From Candidatus Ozemibacter sibiricus (lineage in GTDB: Bacteria; Muiribacteriota; Ozemobacteria; Ozemobacterales; Ozemobacteraceae), in contig QOQW01000003.1 in the NCBI GenBank assembly GCA_003327425.1, positions 62,001 through 126,000 on the forward strand: 64,000 bases of DNA, in the 5' to 3' direction. Below are positions 24,608-38,467 of the stretch, in pieces. Numbering within the stretch: the first letter of the stretch is position 1; each line of letters starts with the position of its first letter. Made by a program: the position numbers and the translations under genes. The notes below the pieces were generated by a model. That model was not told the DNA's origin, searched no databases, and worked only from the letters and a program-made list of their open reading frames with translations.

Positions 24608-24616
24608 TGGTATAGT
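24608..24616 (+). promoter_or_regulatory. Extended -10 promoter of the PhnD/cyclase operon
   Basis: TGG-TATAGT (24608-24616), with no good -35 box. The start codon ATG 24625 lies only eight bases further on, so the mRNA would have almost no leader. Tentative. Confidence 0.4.
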
Positions 24617-24624
24617 AAAGACGC

Positions 24625-25578
24625 ATGAGCATGCGGCAGATGGCGGCCAACACGTCGCTCTTCTCGGGGATCGTCTTCCTCCTCCTGGCTGGAATCCTCG
24701 CGGCGAGCGGGTTGTTGTGGCGGAATTTCCTGGAGTTCTCCGGCTCAGGAAATGGCGACAGCGAGGTCTTCATCGGGCTTTCCTCCCAACCCTCCCCGCG
24801 GGTGACGCTCGCCCGCGCGATGGAACACCACCTGCGCTTCGGATTCGTGATCCCGCGGGGCGACCTGGTCGAGTTCATCGAGGCCGTGCAACCGGCCCTC
24901 GAGAACATCACCGGATCGTTGGGGTATCACCCGGTGATCGATGTCTCCGATTCGACCACCGAACTGCTGGCCAAGCTGGAGCGCGGCGACGTCCAGATCG
25001 CCGCCGTCACGGCGGTGGCCTACGCCCGGCTCCGGGCGACGAACAAGGTCAGGCCATTGCTGGAACGCACGGGCAGCAACAACAAGCATTCCCTCTTCGT
25101 CGTGCGCCGGGACTCGGCCTTCCGTACCCTGGCCGACCTGCAAGGCACGCGGATCGCCTACAAATCCCGCGACTCGCTCAGCGCCTATGCCATGCCCCGC
25201 CTCGAATTGCGCCGGCAGGGCCATGACCCAGACACGTTCTTCCGCAGCGCGACCTTCACCGGCAATGTGCGGACCTCGGCCCTGGGGGTGCTCAATGGCG
25301 AATTCGAGGTCGCCGTGATGTCCGATACGTTTTTCACCGAACTGGAAGCGGATGTTCGCGACCACCTCCGCATCCTCCATAAGACGGCCCCGATCCCAGG
25401 CGGGGTCTATCTGGCCAAGGCCACCCACCCCCCGGAGCTGTTGGACCGCCTGACCGAGGCCTTCCTGGCCAAAGGCCCGCATCTCGCCACCCGGGAGGAG
25501 TTCGCCGGGTATTTCCGGGTGAAGCGCCCCGATCCTTCGCTCTACGATTTCCTCTCCGAGGTGGAAGACGATGGCTGA
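24625..25578 (+). CDS. PhnD-like periplasmic binding protein, membrane-anchored
   Basis: 317 residues. A single hydrophobic segment (about 11-31) without a lipobox anchors the protein; the following 280 residues form a type II periplasmic-binding fold. The segments RFGFVIPRGDLVEFIEAVQP, SDSTTELLAKLERGDVQIAA, LADLQGTRIAYKSRDSLSAY and GEFEVAVMSD are characteristic of the phosphate/phosphite/phosphonate-binding family (PhnD-like). These proteins either feed ABC transporters or act as ligand sensors. There is no permease or ATPase gene nearby, and its stop overlaps by eight bases the start of a two-transmembrane cyclase-like receptor, so a sensory role is inferred. ATG 24631 and 24640 are alternative starts; the first is nearly leaderless. 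Confidence 0.85.
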   Translation: MSMRQMAANTSLFSGIVFLLLAGILAASGLLWRNFLEFSGSGNGDSEVFIGLSSQPSPRVTLARAMEHHLRFGFVIPRGDLVEFIEAVQPALENITGSLGYHPVIDVSDSTTELLAKLERGDVQIAAVTAVAYARLRATNKVRPLLERTGSNNKHSLFVVRRDSAFRTLADLQGTRIAYKSRDSLSAYAMPRLELRRQGHDPDTFFRSATFTGNVRTSALGVLNGEFEVAVMSDTFFTELEADVRDHLRILHKTAPIPGGVYLAKATHPPELLDRLTEAFLAKGPHLATREEFAGYFRVKRPDPSLYDFLSEVEDDG

Positions 25579-27883
25579 CCCGGCCAGCGGCTCCCCGACT
25601 CCAGGCGCGGCCTCGCCTTCCGCCCGGTTCGCCCTCGGTCTCCGCGCCAAGCTGTCGGTGACCTTCGCCTTGGTGATCATCCTGATCATGCTGTTGACGG
25701 TGCTGCTGGTGACCACCTTCGATCGGGGGGCCAACCTGGAACGCGCGCGTCAGAATGCGGCGATGCTGGGCAATCTCGTCAAGATCGGCATGGGGGAAGA
25801 CATCATCCGCGGCAACTACCGCGGCCTGGAATACGCCCTCGAAGAGTTCGCCCGGATGTCGGTGGTGCGCTATTGCGTGGTCATGAACCCGGAAGGGAAG
25901 ATCATGGCCGCGACCGATCCCGAGCTGGCGGGCCGCTACATGACCGATCCGTGGACCCTGGACCGATTGGCCGCCCCCGACGTCGCCATTCGCAGGGCTT
26001 TCCATAAAGGGCATCCGGTCTCCGATGCCTGCATTCCGGTCCGGGTCGGCACCACCTCCTATGGCATGATCCGGGTCGGCTTCTCGATGCAGCCCGAACT
26101 CCACTATCTGCGCAGCGTGCTGCTGGGCAACCTGGCCCTGGGGTTGGCCTTCATCTTCGTCGGGATCCTGGTCTCGGTCGCGGTGGCCCGCACCATCGCC
26201 GGACCCATCGCCGCCCTGCTCGAGGCCACCGAACACGTCGGTCGCGGCGACTATTCCCATCTGACCTCGCTTCCTCATACCGACGAATTCCAGGCCCTGA
26301 CCGCCTCCTTCCAGAAAATGGCGCTCGAACTCCAGAAACGCGAACTGTTACGCACCTACGTCTCTCCCCACGCCTGGGAGGAAGCGACCGGGACCACCGG
26401 CGACCTCGCCCGCACCGGTCAACGCCAGGAGGTCGTGGTGCTGTTCTGCGGCATCCGCGGCTTCCCTGCCTTCGCCGAGCGGCATCCGCCAGACGAAGTG
26501 ATCGACGTGCTGAATCGCTTCCTCGACGCCATGGTGGAACCGATCGCCCGCTTCGGGGGAATCATCGACAAGTTCCTGGGCGAGCGGATCATGGCGGTCT
26601 TCCTGCCGGCCGGCTCCCAGCCGTGGTCTCCTGAGGTCAGGGCGGTGTTTGCGGCCCTGGGCATGCAACGAGCCCTGTTCGAATTCAATCAACGCCAGGC
26701 CGAACTGGGGCAGGAAGCGCTCCACTTCGGGACAGGCCTGCATGCCGGCACGGTCGTGCTCGGCCATGTGGGAGCGGGCAACCGTCGGGAATTCACTGTC
26801 CTGGGCGATACCGTCCGCCACGCCGCCCATCTCAAAGACCTCCCGGCCGCCCCCGGCGGCACCTCCATCTTCATCAGCGGCCCTCTCCTGGGCCGCATCA
26901 AGGATTTCGTCCTTGCCCGCGAGGTCTCGCCAGCCAGCCCGGCCGCCAGCGCGACCCGCTCCGACCTCGCCTATGAGGTGACCGGCCTGACCAACCTCGG
27001 CTACTTCATCGAAGCCGCTCGCACCGCCGAGCCCCCATGGCTCGACCAGCTCATGGACCTGGTGGCGTGCATCGGCACCCTCGACGCTCGCCAGTATCTG
27101 GAACGAGAAGCCGTCAGCGGTTCGCTCGAACGAGCCATGGCCGCGCTCAAGGCCCTCGGCCGGCTGGTGGCGATCGGCCAGGAAGAAGCCAAGGCCTTCC
27201 TGATGACCTTCCTGGCAAAGGCTTCCGATCCGGGGCTCCGCAGTCAGGCGGTGTCGATGCTGGCCCTGGCCCGCGAGCCTCGCCTGGCCGGCTTTTTCCG
27301 ACAGCTGCTGACCGACCCCGACGGTCGGGTCAGAGCCAATGCCCTGCAAGCGCTGCTTCCCCTGCCCTTCTCCGACAAAGCCGAGGTGCTCCGGGCCCAC
27401 CAGGCTGATGACCATCCCCGCGTCGTCGCCAATGCCCTGCTCGGGCTCTGGCTCCTGGATGACCCTCAGGTGCTCCCCGGCCTGCTCGCTCTCCTCGACT
27501 CCCCTGCACCGGCCCGCCGCACCTCGGGCGCCTTCGCCCTCGCCACCCTGGCCGGTTCGCGAAAGTTCCAGGCCCGGTTCGCCCAAGGCGTGAAAGGCGG
27601 GGAAGAAACCGCCACCCGCCTGCTCGACCACCTCCATCGACTGCTCGACAGCGACGACCCCGGCCCGCGCCGCTATGCCGTCAGGGCTTTGGGCCTGCTC
27701 GGAGATGACCGCTCCTACGACCATCTGGGGGCATTGATCGCCCAGGAGCAGAATCCAGAGATCCTCGACGAAGCAGAGCAGGCCCTCGACCGGCTACGGG
27801 CGCGCTGGGGCGTCCGTCTCTCCCCTCCCCCATCATCGCCGTCGTCGGCTACCGGCCCGGCGGGGGCCCCCAAGCTGCAGTAA
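25571..27883 (+). CDS. Transmembrane class III cyclase-like receptor with HEAT repeats (catalytic site degenerate)
   Basis: 770 residues. Order: TM1 (about 28-48), extracytoplasmic sensor (about 50-178), TM2 (about 182-205), HAMP (about 206-258), class III nucleotide-cyclase domain (about 275-440), and a C-terminal HEAT-like array (about 505-745, repeats such as KASDPGLRSQAVSMLALARE and DPDGRVRANALQALLPL). In the cyclase domain the first metal-binding Asp is Gly294 (LFCGIRGF), the second is Glu338 (KFLGERIMAVF), and the motif that should read GDxVNxAAR reads GDTVRHAAH (413-421), so the transition-state Asn and Arg are Arg416 and His420. Four key positions changed together argue for a pseudo-cyclase. 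Co-transcribed with the PhnD-like protein. Confidence 0.88.
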   Translation: MADPASGSPTPGAASPSARFALGLRAKLSVTFALVIILIMLLTVLLVTTFDRGANLERARQNAAMLGNLVKIGMGEDIIRGNYRGLEYALEEFARMSVVRYCVVMNPEGKIMAATDPELAGRYMTDPWTLDRLAAPDVAIRRAFHKGHPVSDACIPVRVGTTSYGMIRVGFSMQPELHYLRSVLLGNLALGLAFIFVGILVSVAVARTIAGPIAALLEATEHVGRGDYSHLTSLPHTDEFQALTASFQKMALELQKRELLRTYVSPHAWEEATGTTGDLARTGQRQEVVVLFCGIRGFPAFAERHPPDEVIDVLNRFLDAMVEPIARFGGIIDKFLGERIMAVFLPAGSQPWSPEVRAVFAALGMQRALFEFNQRQAELGQEALHFGTGLHAGTVVLGHVGAGNRREFTVLGDTVRHAAHLKDLPAAPGGTSIFISGPLLGRIKDFVLAREVSPASPAASATRSDLAYEVTGLTNLGYFIEAARTAEPPWLDQLMDLVACIGTLDARQYLEREAVSGSLERAMAALKALGRLVAIGQEEAKAFLMTFLAKASDPGLRSQAVSMLALAREPRLAGFFRQLLTDPDGRVRANALQALLPLPFSDKAEVLRAHQADDHPRVVANALLGLWLLDDPQVLPGLLALLDSPAPARRTSGAFALATLAGSRKFQARFAQGVKGGEETATRLLDHLHRLLDSDDPGPRRYAVRALGLLGDDRSYDHLGALIAQEQNPEILDEAEQALDRLRARWGVRLSPPPSSPSSATGPAGAPKLQ

Positions 27884-29801: not shown

Positions 29802-32690
29802 GTGGAAAACAGCATCCTGGCGGCCCAGTCCTTATTCTGGTTGGCACCTTTCGGGTCATTGCTCGCCCTCGTGTTCGCCTACATTTTCTATTCGAACATG
29901 ATGGCTTCCGATCCAGGGAGTCAACGCTCCCAGGAGATCGCCAGCTACGTCAAAGAAGGGGCGATGTCCTACCTCTGGAGCCAGTATCGAGTGGTGGGGT
30001 ATTTCTTCCTGTTCGCCTTCGCCTTCTTCGCGTTCCTGGCCTTCGTCCTGCATGTCCAGAGCCCCTGGACCCCGATCGCCTTCCTGACCGGGGGCTTCTT
30101 CAGCGGGCTGGCCGGCTACCTCGGGATGATCACCGCCACCAATGCCAGCAACCGCACGGCCGCGGCCGCCGCCAAGTCCCTCAACCAGGGGCTGCAGGTG
30201 GCGTTCCGCAGCGGCGCCGTCATGGGCTTCGTCGTGGTGGGGCTGGGCCTGCTGGACATCTCGATCTGGTGGAAGATCCTGACCTGGATCATGGAGGCCA
30301 AGGAAACGTTCAAGGACAGCATGTTCCGGGTGAAGGACTACGTCGAGATCACCACCATCATGCTGACCTTCGGCATGGGGGCCAGCTCGCAGGCGTTGTT
30401 CGCGCGCGTCGGGGGCGGCATCTTCACCAAGGCCGCCGATGTCGGCGCCGACCTCGTCGGCAAGACCGAAGCCGGCATTCCCGAGGACGATCCGCGCAAC
30501 CCGGCCGTCATCGCCGATAACGTCGGCGACAACGTCGGCGACGTGGCGGGCATGGGCGCCGACCTCTATGAATCCTACTGCGGCTCGATCCTGGCCACGG
30601 CGGCGCTCGGCGCGACAGCTTTCTCGAGCCAGGCGCTGCTCAAGTACCAGCTCGGGGCGATCATTCTGCCGATGGCCATTTCGGGGGTCGGCATCATCTT
30701 CTCGCTGCTGGGCGTCTACTTCGTCAACACCCAGGAGGACGCCTCCCAGAAAGACCTGGTGGCGGCGCTCGGGAAGGGCATCAACCTCGCGTCGCTGCTG
30801 ACCGCGATCGGCGCGGCGGTTCTGGTCTACGTCCTGCTGCCAGACCATTTCTACATCTACGGGTCGATCCTCAGCGGCCTGATGGCCGGCATCATCATCG
30901 GCTGGGCCACCGAGTACTACACCTCGGCCGACTACGAACCGACCAAGGAGGTGGCCGCCCAGTCGACCACCGGCCCGGCCACTGTGATCATCGAAGGGAT
31001 CGCTTCGGGCATGCTGTCGACCGGCGTGCCGGTCGTGGTGGTCTGCGTGGCCATCCTGTTCGCCTACGGCTTCGCCGGCGGGTTCGAGAACTCGGCCATG
31101 GGTCTGTACGGCATCGGTATCGCCGCGGTCGGCATGCTGGCCACCCTGGGCATCACCCTGGCCACCGACGCCTACGGTCCGATCGCCGACAACGCTGGCG
31201 GCAACGCCGAGATGTCGCACATGGGTCCCGAGGTCCGCAAGCGGACCGACGCGCTCGACTCCCTGGGGAACACGACCGCCGCCACCGGCAAGGGCTACGC
31301 CATCGGCTCGGCGGCGCTGACCGCCATGGCCCTGCTCGGCGCCTACGTCGAAGAGCTGCGCATGGGGCTGATCCGGTTGGCCAACTCGACCGGGGACATC
31401 GTCGACAAATACATCTTCACCGGGCCCAAGACCGCCATTCCGGTGGAGACGGCCTCGCTGCACGACTTCATGGTCTACTTCGACGTCAACCTGATGAACC
31501 CGCAGGTGCTGGTCGGGGTCTTCGTCGGCGCCATGCTCGTCTTCGTGTTCTGCGCCCTGACCATGAAAGCGGTCGGACGGGCGGCCCACAGCATGGTCGT
31601 GGAAGTGCGCCGCCAGTTCAAGGAGATCCCTGGCCTGCTGAAGGGCGAACCCGGCGCCAAGGCCGACTACGCGTCGTGCGTGGCGATCTCGACCAAGGGA
31701 GCCCAGCAGGAGATGGTGTTCCCCAGCCTGCTGGCCATCATCATCCCGGTCGTCATCGGTCTGATCCTCGGCCCCAGCGGGGTGATGGGCCTGCTGATCG
31801 GCGGCCTGGCCTGCGGCTTCGCCGTGGCCATCTTCATGGCCAACGCCGGCGGCACCTGGGACAACGCCAAGAAATACATCGAATCCGGCCAGCACGGCGG
31901 CAAAGGCTCTGATTGCCACAAGGCCGGCGTGGTCGGCGACACGGTCGGCGATCCGTTCAAGGACACCTCCGGCCCCTCGCTGAACATCCTGATCAAGCTG
32001 ATGAGCATGGTGGCGGTCGTCGTCTCCGGACTGACCGTGTCCTATTCGCCCAGCATCCAGTATCTCCTCGGCTTCAATCCGGCCGAGCGGCGGTTGAAGG
32101 AAGAGGCGCGCACGGCCTACAAGGAAGGCGCGCTGAAACTGGTCGACCCCAAGACCGGCGGGGCGGCGGTGCCGACCGAGGAGGGCATCCTCGACGATGA
32201 AGATCCGTTGATGGGCACCGATGACACCATCCTGCCCGAGGATGAAGAAGGGCTCCTCGGCGAGGAAACCGCCTCCGACACGCTCGATGAACCTCTGCCC
32301 GCCACGACCGAGACCTCGACCGGCACCAAGCCGGCAGCGCCCAGCAGCGGCAACGACGGGTTCGGCGGCCTCGATGAACCCACCAAGCCGGCCAAACCGG
32401 CGACCAGCGGCAGCGGAGACGACGGGTTCGGCGGCCTCGATGAGCCGGCCAAGCCCGCCAAACCCGCCACCGGCGGCAGCGTTGGCGATGGCTTCGACGC
32501 GCTCGATGCCCCCGCCAAGCCGGCCGACAAACCCGCCGACAAACCGGCCGACGCCCCCGCGGCGACCGACAAACCCGCCGACAAGCCGGCCGATGCTCCG
32601 GCGGCGGCCACCGACAAACCCGCCGACAAACCGGCTGATAAGCCGGCCGACAAGCCGGCCACGGGTGGTGGTGGCGCCTTCGACGAGTAA
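29802..32690 (+). CDS. hppA: Membrane-bound ion-translocating pyrophosphatase, K+-dependent type, with long C-terminal tail
   Basis: 962 residues with a GTG start behind AAGGAGG. About the first 755 residues are the usual multi-helix membrane pyrophosphatase, with the pyrophosphate/Mg2+ site (DVGADLVGKTEAGIPEDDPR, NVGDNVGDVAGMGADLYESY, and GGTWDNAKKYIE, GDTVGDPFKDTSGPSLN). The protein splits PPi to pump H+ or Na+ across the membrane. At the potassium-site signature it has GNTTAATGKG with Ala493 where K+-independent enzymes have Lys, so K+ dependence is predicted; H+ versus Na+ cannot be decided. After the last helix (about residue 757) comes a hydrophilic tail of about 200 residues, with three 22-residue repeats (GFGGLDEP...KPAKPA) and then Lys-Pro-Ala-Asp repeats. 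Such a tail is not normal for the family. Confidence 0.93.
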   Translation: MENSILAAQSLFWLAPFGSLLALVFAYIFYSNMMASDPGSQRSQEIASYVKEGAMSYLWSQYRVVGYFFLFAFAFFAFLAFVLHVQSPWTPIAFLTGGFFSGLAGYLGMITATNASNRTAAAAAKSLNQGLQVAFRSGAVMGFVVVGLGLLDISIWWKILTWIMEAKETFKDSMFRVKDYVEITTIMLTFGMGASSQALFARVGGGIFTKAADVGADLVGKTEAGIPEDDPRNPAVIADNVGDNVGDVAGMGADLYESYCGSILATAALGATAFSSQALLKYQLGAIILPMAISGVGIIFSLLGVYFVNTQEDASQKDLVAALGKGINLASLLTAIGAAVLVYVLLPDHFYIYGSILSGLMAGIIIGWATEYYTSADYEPTKEVAAQSTTGPATVIIEGIASGMLSTGVPVVVVCVAILFAYGFAGGFENSAMGLYGIGIAAVGMLATLGITLATDAYGPIADNAGGNAEMSHMGPEVRKRTDALDSLGNTTAATGKGYAIGSAALTAMALLGAYVEELRMGLIRLANSTGDIVDKYIFTGPKTAIPVETASLHDFMVYFDVNLMNPQVLVGVFVGAMLVFVFCALTMKAVGRAAHSMVVEVRRQFKEIPGLLKGEPGAKADYASCVAISTKGAQQEMVFPSLLAIIIPVVIGLILGPSGVMGLLIGGLACGFAVAIFMANAGGTWDNAKKYIESGQHGGKGSDCHKAGVVGDTVGDPFKDTSGPSLNILIKLMSMVAVVVSGLTVSYSPSIQYLLGFNPAERRLKEEARTAYKEGALKLVDPKTGGAAVPTEEGILDDEDPLMGTDDTILPEDEEGLLGEETASDTLDEPLPATTETSTGTKPAAPSSGNDGFGGLDEPTKPAKPATSGSGDDGFGGLDEPAKPAKPATGGSVGDGFDALDAPAKPADKPADKPADAPAATDKPADKPADAPAAATDKPADKPADKPADKPATGGGGAFDE
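32355..32665 (+). repeat. Tandem repeats encoding the HppA tail
   Basis: Three imperfect units with a period of about 66 bases (starting near 32355, 32421 and 32487) encode DGFGGLDEP-type modules. They are followed by a 12-base-period array (about 32515-32665) encoding K-P-A-D repeats interrupted by A-P-A-A. Third-position changes between units show that the repeat is maintained at protein level and not just freshly copied. Confidence 0.75.
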
Positions 32691-35590: not shown

Positions 35591-35722
35591 CGGACGCCGG
35601 AAGCAGCCCCAGGACCGACCACGGGGTTTCCTTTCGGCCGCGAACTTTTTCGCTTGCATCTTCCTGTGAAATGTTGTACGTTGTTCGGCACTACTCGCCC
35701 GTATTTCCCTTTTCGGGGGCGA

Positions 35723-38467
35723 ATGTCCGCAGGAGTTGGTCGTTCAGCCTTGGAATCTCATCACCAGACAGAGGGCCCGTCGGCTACCATCATCGCCATC
35801 GACGGTCCCGCCGGAGCCGGAAAGAGCACTGTCGCCAAGAAGGTCGCCGAGAAACTGGGGTATTCCTATCTCGACACCGGGGCCATGTACCGTGCTGTTA
35901 CCCTGAAGGCCCTGCGCGAGGGGGTCGATTTCCATGACCCGAACCAGTTGTATGCCTGCGCCGCGAGTTCGAACCTGCGGTTCGAGGAGCGCCCGGGTTC
36001 CCCCTTGCCCAGCGTGTTTTTGAACGGCACCGACGTCACCGAGGCGATCCGCGACCCCGAGGTGACGCGGCATGTCTCCGATGTAGCCAAAGACGCCAAG
36101 GTGCGGGAGTGCATGACCCGCCTGCAGCAGCAGATCGGCGCGCACGGGCGCTGGGTGGTCGATGGCCGCGACATCGGCACGGTGGTCTTCCCGAACGCGC
36201 GGGTCAAGATCTTCCTGAGCGCCTCGATCCGGGAGCGCGCCGAGCGCCGGTTGAAGGAACTGCGGGCCAAGGGGTTCGCCGTCAGCCTCGAATCGCTGAT
36301 GGAAGAGATCGCGCGCCGCGACCAGATCGACTCGACGCGGGACGTCGCCCCGCTACGCCAGGCCGAAGGGGCCCACTTTTTGGATACCACGGATCTGACC
36401 ATCGAACAGGTGGTCGACCGCATCATCGAAATCGCCACAGCCAAGGCTGCCAATTTCCGGATGGAGGAACGTATGGAAGACGTCGTCAAACCCGCCAACA
36501 CCCCAGTGAAAGATGAATCACAGATGACGATGGAGGACCTCGAGAGAGAAATGAGCGGGGAGTTCCGTACGATCCGGAACGGTGCCATCGTCACCGGCAC
36601 GGTCATCGATCTGACCCCGACCGGCATCTTCGTCGATCTCGGGTACAAGACCGATGGCGTGATCCCGGTCGAAGAATTCGACGGGGAGATGGTGAAATCG
36701 CTGAAGGTCGGCGACAAGATCCGCGTCTACGTCAAGAGCGTCGACGACGGTCGCGGCCAGCTGGTGCTGTCGCATCGCCGGGCCCGCGAACTGGACGCCT
36801 GGGATCAGATCCAGGAAGCGCACAAGAACCACACGCCGATCGAGGGCATCCTGCGCGAGCGGATCAAGGGCGGCTACAACGTCGACATCGGCGGCGTGCG
36901 CGCCTTCCTGCCGCAGAGCCAGCTGTCGCATGGCAAGAATGTGAAGGAGAGCATCGGCAAGTCCTTCCCGATGATGGTGACCGAGTTCGATCGCCGCCGC
37001 AAGAATGTGGTGGTCTCGGAGCGGGCGGTGGTCGAGGAGATGCGCAACAAGCGGCGCAGCGAGATCTTCGAGAAGTACCAGCCGGGCGACCTGATCAAAG
37101 GCGTGGTGTCGCGCCTGGTCGAGTATGGCGCCTTCGTCGACCTGGGCGATGGCGTCGAAGGGCTGATCCACCGCAACGACCTGAGCTGGTCGGTGATCAC
37201 CAACCCCCGCGAAGTCGTCCAGCCCGGCCAGGAGATCGAGGCCAAGATCCTGAAGATCGACCATGAGAAGGGCAAGATCTCGCTGGGCCTGAAGCAGAAG
37301 AAGGAAGACCCCTGGGTCACCGTCGATCAGCGGTACGAGGTCGGCCGGAAGTACCAGGGCAAGGTCAAGAACCTGATGGACTTCGGAGCCTTCGTCGAAC
37401 TCGAGGAAGGCGTGGAGGGACTGGTCCACATCTCCGACCTGTCGTGGGCCCGCAACGTGCGGCACCCGAGCGACATCGTCAAGTCGGGCGACACCATCAC
37501 CGTCCTGGTGAAGGAGATCGACAAGGCGAAGAAACGCATTTCCCTCTCCTACAAAGAGACCCAGCCCCACCCCTGGGAGAACATCGAGCAGCGCTTCAAA
37601 GTCGGCGACCTGGTCAAAGGCCGGGTCAACAACCTGACCGACTTCGGCGCCTTCGTCGAGATCGCGGAAGGCATCGAAGGGCTGCTGCACATCTCCGACA
37701 TGGATTGGGTGAAGAAGGTCAACCACCCCAAAGAGATCCTGGAGAAAGGCCAGGAAGTCGAAGTCAAGATCCTCAACATCGACTCTCACAACCGGCGCCT
37801 GTCGCTGGGCCTGAAGCAGACGACCAACGATCCCTGGACCGATCTCGACAAACTGTTCAAGGTCGGCGACATCGTGACGGGCGTGGTGAAGAACCTGGTC
37901 AGCTACGGCGCGTTCGTCCAGCTCGAGAACGGCCTGGAAGGCCTGCTGCACATTTCCGAGTTCAGCTGGCAGAACGACGTCAAAGATCCGGCCGACGTGC
38001 TGAAGGTCGGCGATCAGGTCACGGTCGCCATCTACGAACTCGACAAGTACAAGCAGAAGATCGGCCTGTCGCTGCGGCGGGTCGGCGAAGACCCCTGGAA
38101 GGGCATCGAGAAGCGCTTCCCGGTCAATTCCCTACAGCAGGGCAAGGTCATCCACATCGAGAACAGCGGCGCCGAGGTCGAACTGGCCGAGAACGTCCGC
38201 GGGTTCATCCATGTCTCCCAGATCGCCCAGGAGCGGGTGCAGCACCCCAGCGAGGCCGTGAAGGAAGGCGACATCGTGACGGTCAAGGTCCTCGAGATCG
38301 ACCGCAAGAACCGCAAGCTGAAGCTGTCGATCAAGGAAGCGGTCCTCGACAGCGAGCAGCGCGAGCTGAAGAAGTTCCAGCAGCAGTCGAACGAAGGGTT
38401 CTCCGACACGATCGGCGACCTGATGCGCGACAAGCTGGCCGCCCTGAAGGAACAACTGAAAGACTGA
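35723..38467 (+). CDS. cmk-rpsA: Cytidylate kinase / ribosomal protein S1 fusion with seven S1 domains
   Basis: 914 residues from ATG 35723, the start closest to the kinase domain; a 23-codon extension is open upstream. Residues about 20-245 are cytidylate kinase (IDGPAGAGKST, DTGAMYRAVTLKAL, RDIGTVVFPNA, and RDQIDSTR), which phosphorylates CMP and dCMP. After a short linker come seven consecutive S1 domains (about 283-876), each with the pattern G-x-V-x-x-[ILV]-x-x-[FY]-G-A-F-V and [EG]-G-L-[IVL]-H. S1 brings mRNA to the ribosome. Domains 1 and 2 look like the ribosome-binding pair of S1. A strong internal Shine-Dalgarno and ATG (36463-36475) at the domain junction could produce free S1 as well. 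Confidence 0.93.
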   Translation: MSAGVGRSALESHHQTEGPSATIIAIDGPAGAGKSTVAKKVAEKLGYSYLDTGAMYRAVTLKALREGVDFHDPNQLYACAASSNLRFEERPGSPLPSVFLNGTDVTEAIRDPEVTRHVSDVAKDAKVRECMTRLQQQIGAHGRWVVDGRDIGTVVFPNARVKIFLSASIRERAERRLKELRAKGFAVSLESLMEEIARRDQIDSTRDVAPLRQAEGAHFLDTTDLTIEQVVDRIIEIATAKAANFRMEERMEDVVKPANTPVKDESQMTMEDLEREMSGEFRTIRNGAIVTGTVIDLTPTGIFVDLGYKTDGVIPVEEFDGEMVKSLKVGDKIRVYVKSVDDGRGQLVLSHRRARELDAWDQIQEAHKNHTPIEGILRERIKGGYNVDIGGVRAFLPQSQLSHGKNVKESIGKSFPMMVTEFDRRRKNVVVSERAVVEEMRNKRRSEIFEKYQPGDLIKGVVSRLVEYGAFVDLGDGVEGLIHRNDLSWSVITNPREVVQPGQEIEAKILKIDHEKGKISLGLKQKKEDPWVTVDQRYEVGRKYQGKVKNLMDFGAFVELEEGVEGLVHISDLSWARNVRHPSDIVKSGDTITVLVKEIDKAKKRISLSYKETQPHPWENIEQRFKVGDLVKGRVNNLTDFGAFVEIAEGIEGLLHISDMDWVKKVNHPKEILEKGQEVEVKILNIDSHNRRLSLGLKQTTNDPWTDLDKLFKVGDIVTGVVKNLVSYGAFVQLENGLEGLLHISEFSWQNDVKDPADVLKVGDQVTVAIYELDKYKQKIGLSLRRVGEDPWKGIEKRFPVNSLQQGKVIHIENSGAEVELAENVRGFIHVSQIAQERVQHPSEAVKEGDIVTVKVLEIDRKNRKLKLSIKEAVLDSEQRELKKFQQQSNEGFSDTIGDLMRDKLAALKEQLKD
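36463..36475 (+). promoter_or_regulatory. Internal ribosome binding site and in-frame start for free S1
   Basis: GGAGG (36463-36467), five bases, ATG (36473-36475), in frame with the fusion, exactly between the kinase domain and the first S1 domain. Translation from here would give a 664-residue, seven-domain S1. Spacing and strength match those of the best starts in the window. Confidence 0.65.

Follow-up and report, generated by a model that had tools for sequence, protein, structure and literature searches.

In Xanthomonas citri, the periplasmic protein XAC2383 and the receptor diguanylate cyclase XAC2382 reportedly form a published signalling pair with a GGDEF domain as output; the structures of XAC2383 are, we presume, those of PDB entries 5ub3-5ub7. 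AioX and ArrX, which take part in arsenite and arsenate sensing, are solute-binding proteins (SBPs) of the PhnD family that act as signal receptors, and their output is a histidine kinase. Receptors stimulated by SBPs are a known kind of module (PMC9602780). Here we describe two overlapping genes in a 64-kb stretch of DNA from Candidatus Ozemibacter sibiricus (contig QOQW01000003.1, positions 62,001 to 126,000; hereafter the window), which encode an anchored PhnD-family SBP and a membrane receptor whose class III cyclase domain keeps its fold and has lost its catalytic residues. In the labels used below, G stands for a genome, L for a locus, g for a genus and f for a family; G000 is the organism's own genome (5.68 Mb), in which the window lies in contig C29.

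The two open reading frames, both on the + strand, occupy 24625-25578 (317 aa) and 25571-27883 (770 aa) and overlap by 8 nt (ATGGCTGA). Their features are as follows (TM, transmembrane segment).

24625..25578, + strand: PhnD-family SBP (Phosphonate-bd, PF12974), 317 aa, with an uncleaved-looking N-terminal anchor at residues ~6-36 (Pfam, hydropathy)
25174..25182, + strand: Ser184-Leu185-Ser186 where PhnD/PtxB have the Ser-Thr-Ser oxyanion motif (alignment; motif role, PMC10284923)
25267..25269, + strand: Val215 in place of the ligand His, His156 of PhnD1 (alignment; role, PMC10284923)
25571..27883, + strand: receptor, 770 aa, with the order TM1, sCache_3, TM2, HAMP, degenerate class III cyclase, HEAT array (Pfam, hydropathy, model)
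25628..26182, + strand: TM1, periplasmic sCache_3 and TM2, residues 20-204 (Pfam sCache_3_2, 2.2e-9)
26183..26338, + strand: HAMP domain, residues 205-256 (Pfam, 1.8e-7)
26414..26926, + strand: class III cyclase homology domain, residues ~282-452, fold kept and catalytic residues lost (Pfam, 5.6e-11; TM-score 0.83 to Cya2)
26450..26452, + strand: Gly294 at metal Asp1 (alignment)
26582..26584, + strand: Glu338 at metal Asp2, with Lys334 retained two residues ahead of the Gly (alignment)
26816..26830, + strand: transition-state residues Asn and Arg replaced by Arg416 and His420; Asp413 retained (alignment)
27071..27805, + strand: HEAT-repeat solenoid, residues ~501-745 (Pfam HEAT_2, 1.2e-19, four stretches; model all-helical, predicted local distance difference test score (pLDDT) ~90)

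The first-pass annotation had described an anchored phosphonate-type binding protein overlapping a two-TM HAMP receptor with a HEAT array, and reading frames, Pfam and hydropathy agree on this. The SBP matches Phosphonate-bd with E=8.7e-45 (153 bits against a cut-off of 27) and has a single N-terminal anchor, and the receptor has two hydrophobic segments, at ~20-50 and 179-218. That the periplasmic part of the receptor is an sCache_3 domain goes beyond the earlier description. The closest named record to the SBP is an 80% identical protein from a Candidatus Ozemobacteraceae metagenome-assembled genome (MAG).

The solved structure closest to the window SBP is XAC2383 (phmmer 1.8e-12; Foldseek 9.2e-20), and AioX and ArrX are among its high-ranking structural matches. 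As in the Xanthomonas pair, a PhnD-family SBP gene adjoins the gene of a membrane cyclase receptor, and neither SBP has the pocket His. The two systems differ in that XAC2383 keeps Ser-Thr-Ser, whereas the window SBP has an altered motif and is membrane-anchored, and in that a degenerate class III cyclase with HEAT repeats takes the place of the GGDEF output. The window pair shares with XAC2383-XAC2382 the SBP-receptor adjacency, which is conserved among its own orthologues, and, judged by its residues, has no active cyclase output.

Loss of the class III active site

When the receptor was aligned to CyaB, OaPAC and Cya2, Gly294, Glu338, Arg416 and His420 fell in the columns of metal Asp1, metal Asp2, the Asn and the Arg, respectively, exactly the four losses that had been proposed from the sequence at first reading. 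The overall fold is kept, as had also been proposed: the Pfam match lies above its cut-off, the AlphaFold model of the receptor (mean pLDDT 80.7) shows a class III fold followed by a helical solenoid, and Foldseek gave a TM-score of 0.83 between the cyclase domain and Cya2 (2w01). Cya2, CyaB and CyaC share this fold (TM-scores 0.75-0.83) and a domain-wide sequence similarity with the window receptor; the metal Asps, the Asn and the Arg are present in them and lost in it. The base-selecting Lys334 and Asp413 are present in the window receptor and are not conserved in its orthologues from g4 and g8. A split-site cyclase subunit would carry one full half-site, either both metal Asps or Lys-Asp-Asn-Arg, and the window receptor has neither.

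Judged from these residues, catalysis by the accepted class III mechanism is closed to the domain, both in a homodimer and on either side of a heterodimer, and its description as a dead cyclase holds in the sense of known class III chemistry. The receptor of the pair probably no longer makes a messenger itself, and the domain would be expected to lack activity in vitro. Chance or sequencing error as the source of the losses was rejected: G002 (78% identical) shares Glu338 and is also without Asp1.

Conservation and divergence of the pair

A search for orthologues among 57 related genomes found full-length receptors in genera g1, g4 and g8; a fourth genus, g3, has a short form. The locus is present in half of 24 Ozemobacteraceae genomes, and the SBP gene lies directly upstream of the receptor gene in 12 of 12 genomes from the four genera (G000, G001, G002, G004, G005, G009, G012, G016, G017, G021, G022 and G023), in syntenic surroundings. 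The pairing expected by the first-pass annotation is therefore conserved. This arrangement bears on the simplest alternative, that the SBP feeds an ATP-binding cassette (ABC) permease encoded elsewhere and adjoins the receptor by coincidence. PF12974 proteins mostly serve transporters, and the genome has further PF12974 genes and ABC genes besides the window SBP; against this, the genes overlap and keep the same order in 12 genomes, and the SBP has a membrane anchor instead of a free or lipid-anchored form. A PhnCDE-type operon would have adjacent ATPase and permease genes; neither an ABC ATPase (PF00005) nor a BPD permease (PF00528) was found by Pfam search anywhere in the 64-kb window, in keeping with the earlier remark that no transporter genes are near. 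We regard a transport role as exceedingly unlikely.

The expectation that relatives would share the same lost residues failed, for the losses vary by lineage (GE..RH, RE..SR, GD..NR, EG..). Written in the order Asp1, Asp2, Lys, Asp, Asn, Arg, the active site reads GEKDRH in the window, REKDSR in G002 and GDKENR in G001, where Asp1 alone is lost. In g4 and g8 nearly everything is lost: the string is EG, then K or R, then mostly other residues, as in EGRSAA, an alignment that is less certain because of a one-residue shift in the Gly-Asp at the second metal site. None of the receptors of the clade has a complete active site. Asp2, Asn and Arg are all still present in G001, and the Asn also in G016, so that g1 and g4/g8 must have lost these three residues independently, at least in part.

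One could still envision that the domain cyclises or hydrolyses a nucleotide by means of other residues. Glu sometimes replaces Asp as a metal ligand, and Glu stands at position 338 of the window receptor and at Asp1 in g4 and g8; Lys334 and Asp413 are also kept in the window. However, Asp1 is Gly or Arg in g1, the window receptor has lost Asn and Arg along with the metal site, and none of the six columns is conserved across the clade, which makes residual or altered catalysis very unlikely.

The dead domain has nevertheless been maintained, as ratios of nonsynonymous to synonymous substitution (dN/dS) far below 1 show it to be under purifying selection. By Nei-Gojobori counting, which gives rough values here because several comparisons are near synonymous saturation, dN/dS of the dead cyclase was 0.187 for the window and G002 (95% interval 0.121-0.284) and 0.079 and 0.062 for two pairs from g4, where values span 0.06-0.10. 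For the same three pairs, the sCache domain gave 0.090, 0.059 and 0.062, at or near the lowest among the receptor domains. Among relatives with an intact cyclase-HEAT receptor, by contrast, constraint is strongest on the cyclase (0.035-0.057) and weaker on the sensor region (0.095-0.155). The proportions of invariant residues behave similarly: 25% of the sCache and 19% of the cyclase in the dead clade, as against 2% of the sensor and 25% of the cyclase in seven intact relatives, which have differing sensors. By these measures constraint has shifted in the dead clade, and now bears on the sCache no less than on the cyclase. In ten dead orthologues analysed, 32 of 171 cyclase positions are invariant, among them Trp352, which aligns to an acidic loop of the intact enzymes; the six catalytic and base-selecting columns, Lys334 and Asp413 included, are not among them. 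That the pseudo-cyclase perhaps binds a nucleotide, as had been suggested, is thus not supported across the clade; the genus of the window is the only one in which such binding could have survived. On this comparative evidence, the dead domain appears to be kept for something other than catalysis and, clade-wide, not evidently for nucleotide binding.

Two genomes suggest a different course of events, in which the SBP and an sCache membrane protein do the work and the cyclase-HEAT half is a decaying relic. In G004 (g3), the receptor stops ~20 residues after TM2 and the next gene follows at once; the locus (L168:1278-2826; also L026 and L089) retains TM-sCache-TM beside an intact SBP in conserved synteny, with neither cyclase nor HEAT nor room for them. 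A contig end was rejected as the cause, as H-pyrophosphatase and ECF-like genes follow in order; the short receptor rests on one MAG, within which an assembly error is possible. In G022, a single TAA just before the cyclase domain (L016:1338-1340) interrupts the receptor, by real truncation or by sequence error. The dead cyclase domains also sit on long tree branches. The G004 locus, with only SBP and sCache left, shows that the pair can do without a cyclase-HEAT output. But G004 and G022 are each one fragmented assembly, and dN/dS of 0.06-0.19 with 95% intervals far below 1, together with the 19% invariant residues, argues for a maintained function in g1, g4 and g8. We think that decay is unlikely.

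On contigs that are long enough, the neighbours of the pair run in the order ATP-grasp-like gene, the 21935 gene (on the other strand), DUF4350-like gene, the pair, ECF-like membrane gene; the DUF4350-like neighbour was seen in g1, g3 and g8, and an H-pyrophosphatase gene is often at the end of the shared order. The window's own H-pyrophosphatase (29802-32690) has a low-complexity C-terminal tail of ~220 residues past the Pfam domain, acidic at first and then rich in Ala, Pro, Lys and Asp. Elsewhere in the window (35654-38467), a cytidylate kinase is fused in one frame of 937 aa to an array of S1 domains like that of ribosomal protein S1.

Intact and split-site cyclases in the phylum

Receptors with the same TM-sensor-TM-HAMP-cyclase-HEAT order occur elsewhere in the phylum (L022, L024, L028, L029, L040). 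They are up to ~30% identical to the window receptor over HAMP, cyclase and HEAT and have all six active-site residues intact; unlike that of the window receptor, their sensor is not recognised as sCache_3. A PhnD gene adjoins receptors of this type at L023, L025, L027 and L079, and it precedes the intact gene in family f7 (G029, G034, G037) and at a second locus of G001 (C107, L079). The intact PhnD-paired receptors group with the window clade in the cyclase tree (support 85 in the Shimodaira-Hasegawa-like approximate likelihood ratio test (SH-aLRT), with open branches); this grouping does not imply common descent of the two pairings because the SBPs are only 16-21% identical to the window SBP.

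The SBPs themselves differ at the ligand site. In PhnD1, the ligand is held by the Ser-Thr-Ser motif, a His, a Tyr and an Asp (PMC10284923). In the 11 orthologous SBPs, Leu, Met or Pro intrudes in the motif, the Thr being Leu or Met throughout, and the pocket His is lost in all 11, where V, A, L, Y or F stands in its place. Both motif and His are kept in the SBPs beside intact cyclases (L025, L023, L079). The window SBP thus belongs to PF12974 by profile and fold and, with Ser-Leu-Ser and Val215, lacks the residues that hold phosphate or phosphonate. Since the Thr and the His are lost, the protein probably does not hold its ligand in the manner of a phosphate or phosphonate, so that phosphonate, implied by the name first given to the protein, is doubtful.

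Other PhnD proteins of the phylum are also joined to signalling genes. In f5 genomes (L113, L116, L122), a tandem double-PhnD protein (566-587 aa) is followed by an uncharacterised gene and then a CHASE2-cyclase with an intact site, and an ABC ATPase-like frame lies just upstream. PhnD domains are fused to PAS-histidine kinases or histidine kinases and, in one case, to a patatin-like phospholipase (L086:2173-7515, L120:1840-4200, L119:3717-6209). Given the intact pairs, the f5 loci and the histidine-kinase fusions, PhnD proteins as signal inputs are usual in this phylum. A literature search found no PhnD/cyclase pairing outside it, and the genomes searched were within the phylum.

The organism is unusually rich in class III cyclases and HEAT scaffolds, with 53 Guanylate_cyc and 157 HEAT_2 matches. 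Of the former, 34 form 17 pairs, encoded by adjacent genes of ~1000 aa or fused in one frame of 2100-2400 aa (L132-L134 and L136-L148; contigs C2, C5, C13, C15, C17, C18, C27, C28, C29, C36, C43, C47 and C55). Each pair combines a domain that has both metal Asps and is without Asn/Arg or base-selecting residues with one that has Lys-Asp-Asn-Arg and is without Asp1. Each kind of domain forms its own clade in the tree (SH-aLRT 95 and 85), and the branching inside the two clades is similar, as expected if the pair duplicated as a unit. The same complementarity was seen in 12 further Ozemobacteraceae genomes sampled (L173-L177, L180-L185, L190-L192), with fused forms in G001, G003 and G022; in G006, G008, G009, G013 and G015, similar long receptors have intact sites. 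These pairs resemble the mammalian C1/C2 pseudoheterodimers, a type called unknown in bacteria by a 2022 review (PMC9552081), and may prove more important than the receptor finding.

With split-site heterodimers the rule in its own genome, the window receptor might itself be a C2-like subunit that supplies or regulates half of another cyclase's active site. The orthologue in G001 (Gly, Asp, Lys, Glu, Asn, Arg) is exactly of the C2 type, and the window receptor keeps Lys334 and Asp413. However, because it has lost both halves, the metal Asps as well as Asn and Arg, the window receptor can complete neither type of partner. Nearly all six residues are missing in the g4 and g8 orthologues, no unpaired C1-type domain of comparable architecture was found in G000, and the tree sets window-type receptors apart from the C1 and C2 clades. 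A half-site role is quite unlikely. Descent of the receptor from the split-site pairs of the genome was likewise rejected on the separate clades in the tree.

A receptor with a non-catalytic output

The reading that we favour, and that we hold to be evenly poised between right and wrong, is a bipartite periplasmic receptor, made of the SBP and the sCache receptor, whose non-catalytic output acts by protein contact. The anchored PhnD-like protein would bind a small ligand outside the cell in a mode other than the canonical phosphonate or phosphate one, and would act, presumably by contact, on the receptor's sCache domain. The resulting change would pass through TM2 and HAMP into a dimer of cyclase fold that no longer makes cyclic AMP (cAMP), and pseudo-cyclase and HEAT solenoid would hand this state on through protein contact, for instance by recruiting or releasing a putative partner. 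In evolutionary terms, an ancestral cyclase output would have been lost in branch-specific steps while the SBP and the periplasmic half stayed constrained. The bipartite part of this reading is supported by the nearness of the SBP, in sequence and in fold, to the periplasmic half of a receptor-diguanylate cyclase pair. Of the module proposed at the outset, one that makes no nucleotide, the pairing of an SBP with a non-catalytic receptor, conserved and under selection, stood; nucleotide binding and identical losses did not.

Three points weigh on the other side. Cyclase and HEAT can be lost, as in G004, and so may be relics that the receptor does not need. HEAT proteins, with their 157 matches, are so common in the genome that the presence of the repeats alone points to no partner. 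Finally, the G001 receptor keeps Asp2, Lys, Asn and Arg and, to judge from these, could still complement another subunit. More tentatively, and with somewhat less than even confidence, we propose that the clade is a family of pseudo-cyclase receptors in which catalysis was lost in differing ways among genera (Asp2, Asn and Arg each independently at least twice), the non-catalytic cyclase was kept by purifying selection as a contact output joined to HEAT repeats, and this output was dropped in one genome with the periplasmic half kept.

Pseudo-enzymes are well known among kinases. The bipartite SBP-cyclase kind of receptor is also known already, and the non-catalytic class III output is the new part. 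In one and the same clade, the SBP has an altered ligand site and the cyclase an altered active site; if the proposal of such a family is true, a cyclase receptor has here been rewired into nucleotide-free signalling. Domain names alone do not predict cAMP signalling or phosphonate sensing. If the reading is true, a dead class III cyclase would serve, under selection, as the output of a bacterial transmembrane receptor, with several stages of loss in neighbouring genera, and these would form a natural series for what the cyclase fold does without catalysis.

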